From assembly GCA_937135955.1 (NCBI GenBank), contig CAKZOB010000092.1, positions 1-39,807 on the forward strand: a DNA stretch of 39,807 nt. Direction: 5' to 3'. Shown one piece after another: positions 2,786-23,409 of the stretch. A program made the position numbers and the translations under genes. Source of the DNA: an uncultured Anaerolineales bacterium (lineage in GTDB: Bacteria > Chloroflexota > Anaerolineae > Aggregatilineales > Aggregatilineaceae). Each line of letters begins with the position of its first letter. Within the stretch, counting starts at the first letter, position 1. Under the pieces are notes generated by a model that searched no databases, was not told where the DNA came from, and was given only the letters and a program-made list of their open reading frames with translations.

Positions 2786-3529
2786 ATGATCAGCGAGACA
2801 CACAGCTACTCTAGCAGCCTGGAACCGGTGGTGCGCCTGGAGGGCGTGCACCGTGTCTATCACCTGGCCGGCGAGGACATTCACGCCATCAACGATGTGA
2901 CGCTCGACATCTGGCCGCAGCGCATGACGGCCATCGTGGGGCGCTCTGGCTCTGGCAAGACGACATTGCTCAACCTGATCGCCGGTCTGGACAGGCCCAC
3001 GCAGGGCACAGTATGGGTGCTGGGCCGCAACCTGGCGCAGCTTGACGAGCGCGAGCTGTTGGCGTTGCGCCTGCACAAGCTCGGCTTCGTTTTCCAGAGC
3101 TTCGGGCTGATGCCACTGCTGAGCGCGCGCGAAAACGTCGGCGTGCCGCTGCGGATGCGCGGTCTGCCGCCCGACGAGCGCGAAGCCCGCGTGGACGAAG
3201 CGTTGGCCTGGGTGGGGCTGAGCGACCGCGCGCATCATCGCCCCTATGAACTTTCGGGCGGCGAACAGCAGCGCGTGGCGATCGCGCGGGCGCTGGCGGA
3301 AGACCCCGAACTGGTGCTGGCCGACGAGCCGACCGGCCAACTCGACACGCGCACCGGACGGCGTATCCTGGAATTGTTGCGCCGGATGGTGGAAGAGCGC
3401 GGCGTCACGCTGGTGATCGTCACGCACGACCCGCAGGTGATGGCCGAAGCCGATATCGTGCACGAACTGCGCGACGGGCGGCTGGTGGGCACGCGCGTCA
3501 AAGAAGGGGTCGGCGTGCTGGGGCGGTGA
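2786..3529 (+). CDS. ABC transporter ATPase (LolD/MacB-like), second of two
   Basis: 247-residue ATPase with Walker A GRSGSGKTT at residues 52-60, signature LSGGEQQR, Walker B LVLADEPTGQ and H-loop THD. Q replaces E next to the DEPTG in Walker B, a variation seen in the LolD/MacB family. The start is set at 2786 because AGGAG at 2771-2775, overlapping the stop of the preceding ATPase, sits 10 bases upstream. A longer frame exists but would overlap that gene by ~70 bases. Two different ATPases behind one permease suggest either a heterodimeric exporter or that a second permease gene was lost at the chimeric 5' end. Its stop overlaps the GTG of a longer reading of the next gene. Confidence 0.93.
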   Translation: MISETHSYSSSLEPVVRLEGVHRVYHLAGEDIHAINDVTLDIWPQRMTAIVGRSGSGKTTLLNLIAGLDRPTQGTVWVLGRNLAQLDERELLALRLHKLGFVFQSFGLMPLLSARENVGVPLRMRGLPPDEREARVDEALAWVGLSDRAHHRPYELSGGEQQRVAIARALAEDPELVLADEPTGQLDTRTGRRILELLRRMVEERGVTLVIVTHDPQVMAEADIVHELRDGRLVGTRVKEGVGVLGR

Positions 3530-21392: not shown

Positions 21393-22349
21393 TCAGTCGC
21401 CCAGATCGTCGAACAGGGGGGTCGAGAGATAGCGCTCGCCCCACGAAGGGATGATCACTACGATTAGCTTGCCGGCATTTTCCGGACGGTGAGCAACCTG
21501 CAGAGCAGCCCACGTCGCCGCGCCGGACGAGATGCCCACCAGCAAGCCCTCCTCGGTGGCCATGCGCCGCGCGGTGGCGAAGGCGTCTGGCCCGGTGACA
21601 GTGATGATCTCGTCGTAAATCTTTGTGTTGAGCACGTCCGGCACGAAGCCCGCGCCGATGCCCTGGATAGGGTGGGGGCCTTTCTGCCCGCCGGAGAGCA
21701 CCGGTGAGTCGGCGGGTTCTACGGCGACGATGTGCACGTCTGGCTTGCGCGCCTTGAGCACTTCGCCCACGCCGGTGATGGTGCCGCCGGTGCCGATGCC
21801 CGCGACGAAGATATCTATCTGGCCCGCTGTGTCGCGCCAGATTTCCTCAGCGGTGGTGCGGCGGTGCACTTCGGGGTTGGCCGGGTTCATAAATTGCTGC
21901 GGGATGAAGGAGTCGGGGTTCTCGGCGGCGATGCGATTGGCCGCCTCGATCGCGCCGGCCATGCCCTTCTCGCCAGGGGTCAGCACCAGCTCTGCGCCGA
22001 AGGCGCGCAGCACCTTGCGCCGTTCTTTGCTCACCGTCTCCGGCATGGTGACGATCAGGCGGTAGCCGCGCTGCGCGCAGACCATCGCCAGGGCGATGCC
22101 GGTGTTGCCGCTGGTTGGCTCGATGATGAGGGTGTTGGGGCCAATGCGCCCGTCGCGCTCGGCGGCTTCGATCATGGCTAGGCCGATGCGGTCCTTGACG
22201 CTCTTGGCCGGGTTGTAGTATTCCAGCTTGGCGACTACGGTTGCTTTGGCGTCGCCGACGATGCGGTTGAGGCGCACCAGGGGCGTATTGCCCACCAGTT
22301 GCGTCACATCTTCCGCGATATTCATTTTCTGGTTCTGGGCGATGGTCAT
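21393..22349 (-). CDS. cysK: Cysteine synthase (O-acetylserine sulfhydrylase)
   Basis: 318 residues, a PLP fold-type II enzyme that makes cysteine from O-acetylserine and sulfide. The PLP lysine is in [11 protein letters not shown], the substrate loop is [10 protein letters not shown], and the phosphate-binding loop is [20 protein letters not shown] and [10 protein letters not shown] occur near the C-terminus. The ATG at 22349 follows AAGGAGCG. Upstream are a leader with a Cys-rich short ORF and an intrinsic terminator, then a consensus-like promoter. This predicts that transcription into cysK-cysE continues only when the leader senses limiting cysteine. Confidence 0.97.
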
Positions 22350-22393
22350 CAGCTACGCTCCTTATGATGACTGGCTACCGTGCCAAAGATGCA

Positions 22394-22427
22394 CAAAAAA
22401 ATCGGTCACGCTTGTTGCGTGACCGAT
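22394..22427 (-). terminator. Attenuator terminator in the cysK leader
   Basis: On the minus strand, a perfect 11-bp stem ATCGGTCACGC / GCGTGACCGAT with a 5-base loop is followed by seven T's (complement of 22395-22401). It lies between the promoter and cysK, ending 45 bases before the start codon, so it would stop transcription before the gene unless prevented. Its 5' arm contains GTCACGC, which could instead pair (7 bp, one wobble) with GCGTGGC in codons 23-26 of the leader ORF: a possible antiterminator. Confidence 0.85.
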
Positions 22428-22455
22428 CGCGATACCCCTGTCTGGTGGATACGAC

Positions 22456-22542
22456 TCAGGCCATAGCGCCACGCCACAAGCGTTGCCTGTGAGAGTTCAG
22501 ACAGATACAAGCGCAGGCCTGCAGACGTGCAACGGTGATCAT
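22456..22542 (-). CDS. Cys-rich leader peptide of the cysK-cysE operon
   Basis: A 28-codon ORF lying wholly within the predicted leader RNA. Codons 10, 12 and 14 are Cys (segment LQACACICLNSHRQRL), an extreme density for a random 28-codon frame. A GAGGG lies 13 bases before the ATG, slightly far. Downstream of the Cys codons come a segment able to pair with the terminator arm, and then the terminator itself. By analogy with trp, his and related attenuators, and with the polycysteine leader ORFs known from mycobacteria, stalling at Cys codons when charged Cys-tRNA is scarce would favour the antiterminator and switch on cysK-cysE. The role is inferred; the parts are visible. Confidence 0.75.
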   Translation of the reverse strand: MITVARLQACACICLNSHRQRLWRGAMA

Positions 22543-22590
22543 GGCCGGTGAAAAACCCTCAACACCCGATCTATTCGGATAACTGTCATG

Positions 22591-22619
22591 ATTATAAGAG
22601 ATATGGCGAGACTTGCCAA
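22591..22619 (-). promoter_or_regulatory. Consensus-like promoter of the cysK-cysE operon
   Basis: On the minus strand TTGGCA (22614-22619), 17-base spacer, TATAAT (22591-22596, perfect). The start would be near 22584, giving a leader of about 235 bases before cysK, of which the last third holds the attenuator. Confidence 0.85.
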
Positions 22620-22694
22620 GCGGTCTTTTGGTCAAAAACGCCCAAAGGATGCGCATAGAGGTTTGTCAGCAATTGGCTTGACGCGGGGGCATTG

Positions 22695-22754
22695 ACCTCA
22701 CCGCCGCCCGGCGCTGGCGCGCCTCGCCGAGCGAAGCGAGGCTGGGGGTGAGGT
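22695..22754. repeat. Short family-A-like palindromic repeat
   Basis: Terminal ACCTCACC (22695-22702) and GGTGAGGT (22747-22754) form perfect inverted repeats around an inner CCTCGC/GCGAGG hairpin. The start TTGACCTCACC is also found at the very end of the window. It lies between the divergent cysK and crcB promoters. Confidence 0.55.
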
Positions 22755-22805
22755 AAAGCGGCAAGCGGTTTGAAGCAATCGCCCTTTGTTCGCACCCAAC
22801 ATTGT

Positions 22806-22834
22806 TTGACAACCGCGCCGATCTCCGCTAAAAC
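22806..22834 (+). promoter_or_regulatory. Promoter of the fluoride-resistance operon
   Basis: TTGACA (22806-22811), 17-base spacer, TAAAAC (22829-22834). Transcription would begin near 22841, just ahead of the fluoride riboswitch. Confidence 0.75.
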
Positions 22835-22858
22835 TTCATCGGTCGGGCCTCGTGGCCC

Positions 22859-22958
22859 GCAGCGATGAGGCTCGCTGGGCCAGCAACCCCTGCTGGCCGA
22901 AATGTCCCTGGCTGACTGATAGCCTCTACCCGTGCGCACACGCGGTAGGGGCTTTTTG
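22859..22958 (+). ncRNA. Fluoride riboswitch (crcB motif) with terminator expression platform
   Basis: The aptamer hallmarks are present: GCGATGAGGCTCGC (22863-22876) at the 5' side and CTGATAGCCTCTAC (22916-22929) at the 3' side, as in crcB-motif RNAs. GAGGCT can pair with AGCCTC, the long-range helix of the fold. A variable hairpin GGGCCAGCA/TGCTGGCC lies between. The 3' strand AGCCTCTACC (22921-22930) is also the 5' arm of a terminator with GGTAGGGGCT (22944-22953), followed by TTTTT. Fluoride binding would hold the strand in the aptamer and allow read-through into crcB. The 3' neighbour, a CrcB exporter, confirms the call. Confidence 0.92.
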
Positions 22959-23019
22959 TGTGTGGACGGGCGACATTGGATCGCGGCATGTTCTGGCGTA
23001 TGATGAGTGAGAGAAGCGC

Positions 23020-23409
23020 GTGACGGGCAGACACTTCGAAACCCTGTTGCTCATTGGCCTGGGCGGTTTTGCGGGCGCGAACCTGCGCTATTGGGTCGGC
23101 GGCTGGGTGGCGGGGCGACTGGGGGCGCTCTTCCCATGGGGCACGCTGGTGATCAACGTCAGCGGCTCGTTGCTGCTGGCCGTGTTCCTGGGATGGTCGG
23201 CGCAGCAGATCAGCATAGACCCGCGCGTCCGTATGCTGGTCGCCGTCGGCTTTTTCGGGGCGTACACCACCTTTTCGACCTATGCCAACGAGAGCATGTT
23301 CATGCTGGAATCCGGCGACTGGCTGGGCGCGCTGAGCAACATCCTGGGCACCAACCTGTTATGCCTGGCCGGTGCGTTCATTGGCCTGGCCATAGGCCGG
23401 CAATTGTAG
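23020..23409 (+). CDS. crcB: Fluoride ion channel/exporter CrcB (Fluc)
   Basis: 129 residues from a GTG at 23020; an upstream ATG frame closes at once. Four hydrophobic segments. Family signatures: GGFAGANLRYWVG near the N-terminus, WGTLVINVSGSLLLAVFLG with the conserved Asn, and GFFGAYTTFSTYANE, which contains the Phe/Thr/Ser pore residues and central Na+-site region. Fluc proteins act as antiparallel dimers exporting fluoride. Control by the fluoride riboswitch 60 bases upstream fits. The gene for a DUF190-CBS protein follows after 15 bases and is likely cotranscribed. Confidence 0.96.
   Translation: MTGRHFETLLLIGLGGFAGANLRYWVGGWVAGRLGALFPWGTLVINVSGSLLLAVFLGWSAQQISIDPRVRMLVAVGFFGAYTTFSTYANESMFMLESGDWLGALSNILGTNLLCLAGAFIGLAIGRQL

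Follow-up and report, generated by a model that had tools for sequence, protein, structure and literature searches.

The cysK-cysE operon in the window (the whole stretch of DNA that was analysed, 39,807 nucleotides) is preceded by a short ORF with clustered cysteine codons and by a hairpin. This arrangement raises the question of whether these parts constitute a cysteine-sensing attenuator, as a first-pass annotation of the sequence had proposed. On the minus strand the order is promoter, Cys-codon leader ORF, intrinsic terminator, cysK and cysE (Table 1). The two genes are separated by 42 nt and a Shine-Dalgarno (SD) sequence, AAGGAG, stands upstream of cysK. The annotated promoter is present at 22619-22591 and is the sole sigma-70-like site found by a scan of the minus strand between 22000 and 25000. 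The leader ATG lies 48 nt after the -10 element, and the annotated distance of about 42 bases to the ORF holds with the start site assumed at 22584. The 28-codon ORF with Cys at codons 10, 12 and 14 was likewise borne out (22542-22456), and its stop codon is at 22458-22456.

Two of the annotated parts had to be corrected in size. The seven T's after the hairpin stood, but the stem described as 11 bp consists of 12 pairs, one of them G-U; this hairpin (22428-22400) folds with -20.5 kcal/mol, whereas shuffled sequences average -4.7. The pairing of GTCACGC with GCGTGGC also exists, but it extends by eight further pairs (ACGCUUGU:ACAAGCGU), giving 15 pairs around one mismatch, and the duplex beats shuffles (p 0.002). 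It therefore takes in most of the terminator 5' arm, the loop and the start of the 3' arm. Its first paired base is 17 nt past the last Cys codon.

Table 1. Features of the cysK-cysE leader and its surroundings in the window
Feature	Position	Strand	Evidence or remark
cysE, serine O-acetyltransferase, 239 aa	20631..21350	-	NCBIfam TIGR01172, 254.7 bits (cut-off 210.65)
cysK, cysteine synthase A, 318 aa	21393..22349	-	NCBIfam TIGR01139, 472.5 bits (cut-off 350.95)
Intrinsic terminator, loop AACAA, T run 22401-22395	22395..22428	-	stem 22428-22417 / 22411-22400
Antiterminator 3' arm (GUCACGC A ACAAGCGU)	22408..22423	-	pairs with the leader ORF arm
Leader ORF MITVARLQACACICLNSHRQRLWRGAMA, 28 codons + TGA	22456..22542	-	Cys-cluster leader in 31/36 cysK upstream regions
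Antiterminator 5' arm, inside the leader ORF (ACGCUUGU G GCGUGGC)	22468..22483	-	duplex -25.5 kcal/mol
Sensing codons TGC GCT TGT ATC TGT, codons 10-14, Cys at 10, 12 and 14	22501..22515	-	ORF translation
Promoter TTGGCA-17-TATAAT	22591..22619	-	11/12 consensus bases
115-codon open frame, mechanical call	22592..22939	-	ORF list only
Putative divergent fluoride riboswitch	22852..22935	+	sub-threshold covariance match directly 5' of crcB
crcB, fluoride exporter gene, divergent upstream neighbour	23020..23409	+	passes NCBIfam cut-off

We compared the cysK upstream regions of relatives. Among 154 genomes of the same order, 35 had a close CysK ortholog (E <= 1e-140), and the start of a fragmented cysK in G017 provided the 36th upstream region. 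We left out G004 and G009, where the CysK match runs into the contig end, as well as a fragment of 51 residues in G015 and the second match in G063, a partial one. The Cys-cluster ORF and the terminator were both present in 31 of the 36 regions and both absent in the remaining five (G055, G078, G101, G144 and G151), so none kept the terminator without the ORF or its Cys codons. The region of G151 has one C.C ORF of the chance-expected sort, without a terminator. In three of these five (G055, G144 and G151) the cysK match begins 20-59 nt after the end of a long same-strand open frame, and thus cysK is probably not the first gene of its operon there. Both parts also occur in the genomes G510 and G463, which belong to another family of the class; with the 31 of the order they make up the 33 leaders analysed below.

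Short ORFs with three or more clustered Cys were found in 28 of the 36 upstream regions, as opposed to one of 36 reverse complements and 1.1 expected by dinucleotide shuffles. The corresponding numbers for C.C short ORFs were 32, 6 and 6.1. Of the 33 leaders, 30 have clusters with at least three Cys. Their Cys codons comprise 98 TGT and 28 TGC, and by frame the leader ORFs contain 126 Cys in the leader frame, against 62 and 24 in the other two. The last clustered Cys is 9-18 codons away from the stop codon. The peptide outside the Cys cluster is not kept across families, and the N-termini differ freely. Between G000 and its closest relative, G002, 114 of 116 columns are identical from codon 10 to the end of the terminator. 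The flanks of this block agree in 35/51 (5' UTR), 20/27 (codons 1-9), 30/52 (terminator to cysK) and 59/108 positions (about 100 nt upstream of the promoter).

With the best 150 candidates scored in each of 21 genomes, an RNA model made from 11 leaders gave 41 matches to E 1. Twelve of these were cysK leaders (E <= 1.2e-4), ten being members of the model by construction and two, G002 and G024, not. The other 29 matches, from the same best 150 candidates per genome, were weak (E 0.0017-0.76); the seven that we inspected were not in a Cys-leader setting and look like chance hairpins. Among the best 150 of 1936 candidates in the window's genome there was no second credible copy. One other match there (E 0.12) was rejected, as it covers only the hairpin end of the model.

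A CysK tree of 50 rows placed all 22 leader-bearing rows that it contained in one group with the leader-less G055, G078, G101 and G144 (95/87, from a bootstrap that had not settled). The Chloroflexota record L037 stood beside this group, with other Chloroflexota near it, and G151 fell elsewhere. By this tree the host is probably a member of the Chloroflexota, and within them probably of the Anaerolineae. Such a distribution of sequences would fit, short of proof, one early origin of the attenuator and several losses. As a separate observation, L144 (G151) and L034, in both of which the leader is missing, have a similar open frame ending EVFDEALIGGAGI directly before cysK, which may resemble an Rrf2-type regulator.

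Within the window's family each of the 12 leaders is preceded by a promoter with 11 of 12 matches, which ends 43-60 nt short of the leader start. The single leader of family f5 also has an 11-of-12 promoter, and with it the range becomes 34-60 nt. Promoters outside the window's family, taken as the best site within about 110 nt, are less certain (7-11 of 12 matches). The leader starts, 28 ATG, 4 GTG and 1 TTG, were chosen by hand among candidate ORFs, and their Shine-Dalgarno sites were mostly weak, distant or not found. In G049 (L132), G051 (L133) and G063 (L134) the -10 element ends just 6 nt before the leader ATG, so these ORFs look leaderless; in the window, where this distance is 48 nt, the leader is not. 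Some lineages seem to have made the leader of the CxCxC attenuator leaderless, as in mycobacteria.

Next, we consider the pairing. The first-pass annotation had proposed compensatory changes as a check, and such changes are present in both helices. Across 11 aligned leaders from families f1 and f5, 100% of the terminator cells and 95.8% of the antiterminator cells are paired, and 6 of the 11 inner terminator pairs and 3 of the 15 antiterminator pairs are changed on both sides. Sliding either helix by 1-3 columns lowered the paired fraction to 23-40% for the terminator and 21-60% for the antiterminator. We also observed that, over all 33 leaders, the cognate ORF:terminator duplexes have a mean of -21.0 kcal/mol against -16.7 for permuted partners, and 0 of 20,000 permutations were as good. 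When each genus was represented by a single leader (19), none of the 500 permutations in each of 300 draws matched the cognate set; with one leader per family (7), a mean fraction of 0.004 did.

Taken one by one against shuffles of the ORF segment, the duplex was significant (p < 0.05) in 19 of the 33 leaders and not in 14. The latter include four of the five leaders of family f8, G011 and G013 of the window's family, and G033, G038, G049, G051, G077, G146, G148 and G463. The core of the arm, (T/C)TGTGG, is in frame 0 in family f1, where G003 and G013 have one-base variants of it, in frame 2 in G021, G053, G063 and G102, and in frame 1 in G033, G146 and G463; in G003 a stop codon falls inside the arm. 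As the core is read in different frames across families, it is the RNA and not the peptide that is kept there. The 33 leaders are thus natural variants in which the sensing codons are kept while the RNA arms drift and change reading frame.

The spacing of the parts also fits an attenuator. The last clustered Cys codon is followed 11-21 nt later by the start of antiterminator pairing in 29 of the 33 leaders, the exceptions being 24, 26, 4 and 4 nt; in both of the 4-nt cases a two-pair stub precedes the main helix. The distance from the stop codon to the terminator is 27-32 nt in 26 leaders and 38-46 nt in seven. If the ribosome footprint is assumed to reach about 12 nt past the A site, these spacings imply that a stalled ribosome leaves the arm free and that a terminating ribosome covers it.

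We examined the balance of the two structures by folding. With the ribosome placed at the last Cys codon, the equilibrium probability of the terminator fell below 0.5 in only five of the 33 leaders, and with the ribosome at the first Cys codon it did so in none (0/33). An equilibrium thermodynamic switch was therefore rejected, the terminator having a probability of at least 0.5 in 28 of the 33 even with the ribosome at the last Cys codon. Since the terminator is the more favourable structure at equilibrium, the switch has to be a kinetic one, with the antiterminator forming first. In 26 of the 33 leaders, the main partner of the terminator 5' arm and loop in partial transcripts is the ORF. 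A protector (1:2) hairpin was not supported as a general feature, being better than shuffles in only four of the 33; in a permutation over all 33, 22 of 5000 were as good.

The co-occurrence of ORF and terminator, the compensatory pairing and this geometry support the annotated reading. We consider it very probable that the leader controls cysK-cysE by ribosome-mediated transcription attenuation, with charged tRNA-Cys as the signal sensed. RNA polymerase would start at about 22584 and a ribosome would begin the leader ORF, which we infer to be translated. With ample Cys-tRNA, the ribosome would run to the stop codon and cover the antiterminator arm, so that the terminator could form and transcription would end before cysK. 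With scarce Cys-tRNA, the ribosome is expected to stall at codons 10-14, leaving the arm about 17 nt further on free to pair with the emerging terminator 5' arm, the loop and the start of the 3' arm. The terminator would then not be formed in time, and cysK-cysE would be transcribed, so that the response would run from cysteine shortage to induction. Such an attenuator would imply that transcription and translation are coupled in the host and its lineage. It would represent a specific and testable regulator of cysteine synthesis in a large lineage, probably Chloroflexota.

Other readings of the same parts have to be weighed against this one. Riboswitches and T-boxes control many sulfur genes, and a riboswitch or a tRNA-binding T-box could govern the terminator, with the ORF being incidental; the related locus L017 does have a SAM-I/IV match. 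In the window no Rfam family reached its gathering score, and in 22200-23000 no T-box or SAM match appeared to E 10. Across 13 related loci Rfam gave just two matches at gathering score, both in L017: a tRNA and the SAM-I/IV one, outside the leader. With the Cys codons kept in frame and only 27-46 nt between stop codon and terminator, this reading is extremely improbable. The ORF might instead encode a trans-acting cysteine-rich peptide that binds metal or sulfur, the terminator being separate and unregulated, and clusters like CCCPCC or CACIC do call to mind metal-binding motifs. Only the Cys cluster is kept across families, however, and the motif downstream of it is read in varying frames. 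The cognate pairing tests and the joint presence or absence of ORF and terminator also make such a peptide very improbable.

Intrinsic terminators often lie between genes, and the hairpin could thus belong to an upstream transcription unit, for which the 115-codon frame on the same strand would be a candidate, with cysK having its own promoter further down. Against this, the identified upstream neighbour, crcB, is divergent, the only promoter-like site found on the minus strand between 22000 and 25000 is upstream of the leader, and the leader ORF and the hairpin are lost together; we regard this origin of the hairpin as highly improbable. The remaining reading accepts that the leader senses cysteine and places the output at translation, through access to the ribosome-binding site of cysK. 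Cysteine genes of M. smegmatis are regulated by translation attenuation according to PMC13236596, and the SD of cysK is partly paired (0.38-0.60) when the whole window leader is folded at equilibrium. However, every one of the 33 leaders in the pairing analysis has a T-run terminator after its ORF, and it is with this terminator, not with the SD, that the conserved alternative pairing is made. The window leader has no CUCC able to mask the SD, and the stretch from terminator to cysK is the poorly kept one in the comparison of G000 with G002. Translation attenuation is therefore very improbable here, and transcription attenuation remains the preferred reading.

In the classical trp, his and ilv attenuators, sensing codons are combined with an antiterminator that competes with an intrinsic terminator, and a ribosome at the stop codon masks the antiterminator arm. 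The leader studied here has the same sensing codons, competing antiterminator and arm that can be masked at the stop codon, but it differs in the amino acid and in the protector hairpin, which is not generally conserved among the leaders. M. tuberculosis ilvB1 is given as an example of the classical type in PMC13236596.

For cysteine, the closest counterpart is uORFC-8-2 before cysS in Rhodobacterales, which PMC8632094 describes as a predicted transcription attenuator with an intrinsic terminator; this kind of attenuator is thus not new. In both cases a short uORF has conserved Cys codons; in uORFC-8-2 a terminal U run is read as the intrinsic terminator, and the proposal is that readthrough becomes possible when ribosomes stall at the Cys codons (PMC8632094). 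That element controls a cysteinyl-tRNA synthetase in alphaproteobacteria, whereas the present one precedes a biosynthetic operon. Its two Cys codons are tandem, usually codons 14/15, and lie inside the first of two stems (PMC8632094). In the window, by contrast, the Cys are spaced as CxCxC, and the antiterminator arm comes after them, inside the ORF.

Short polycysteine ORFs, leaderless, also occur upstream of mycobacterial sulfur genes, where the speed of translation depends on cysteine (PMC9031893, PMC13236596 and PMC9094748). The Cys-codon ORF before sulfur genes is common to both systems, as is the leaderless appearance of G049, G051 and G063. Unlike the mycobacterial ORFs, which are described there as acting by translation attenuation, the present leaders have a conserved intrinsic terminator and antiterminator, and in the window the 5' UTR measures about 42 nt if the assumed start site holds. 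In the actinobacterial genera Mycobacterium, Propionibacterium and Bifidobacterium, candidate leader peptides were described before cys/cbs operons (PMC1262725). These are likewise short Cys-codon-rich ORFs before cysteine genes, with runs of Cys codons. In that study the runs are near the stop codon and no obvious terminator is reported, whereas the present leaders have a terminator after the ORF, and their stop codon comes 9-18 codons after the last clustered Cys. The first-pass annotation knew of no described case in this kind of organism, and among the matches listed we also found no Chloroflexota cysteine attenuator in the open-licence literature; passages of PMC4833913, PMC2965389 and PMC8079986 contain nothing on one.

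The wider class points to a second cysteine-leader architecture. A class-wide CysK search matched 171 of 396 genomes, order members included. Outside the order we took 100 cysK upstream regions from 97 genomes, among them those of G510 and G463; these were hand-picked from the better-scoring places, some places being skipped, and the counts that follow are to be read for this selection. C.C short ORFs were found in 56 of the 100 regions (10 on the reverse strand, 14.1 in shuffles) and clusters of at least three Cys in 17 (0 and 1.9). A C.C motif followed by a stretch rich in R/G was found in 26 (1 and 0.7). In this second kind of leader, an ORF with CxC and then an R/G-rich stretch covers a GCGGGG whose pairing partner is a CCCCGC further downstream. 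We observed it in the named Chloroflexota records L033, L036, L037 and L040; it is absent from L034. Within the order, the more distant CysK homologues have a similar leader in five of nine cases (L027-L031, not L023-L026).

In eight of nine aligned second-kind leaders the GCGGGG just past the Cys codons pairs with CCCCGC. A single consensus structure was rejected, as little beyond this pairing emerged and there was almost no covariation signal. As the pairing strand starts only a few nucleotides past the last Cys, a stalled ribosome would block this pairing rather than free it. We see about an even chance that cysteine-codon leaders are the common controller of cysteine synthase across the class, in at least two unrelated RNA architectures, namely the CxCxC attenuator and the second kind.

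Two further RNA elements were noted beside these leaders. In the related locus L017, the SAM-I/IV riboswitch match lies at 3172-3293, downstream of cysK, with 42.8 bits (gathering score 41.1). In the window, the element upstream of crcB is possibly a divergent fluoride riboswitch, judging from a covariance match that scores 18 bits where the gathering score is 34 (E 0.006 in a 191-base stretch). On its 3' side there are an extra hairpin and a terminator-like hairpin with a T run.
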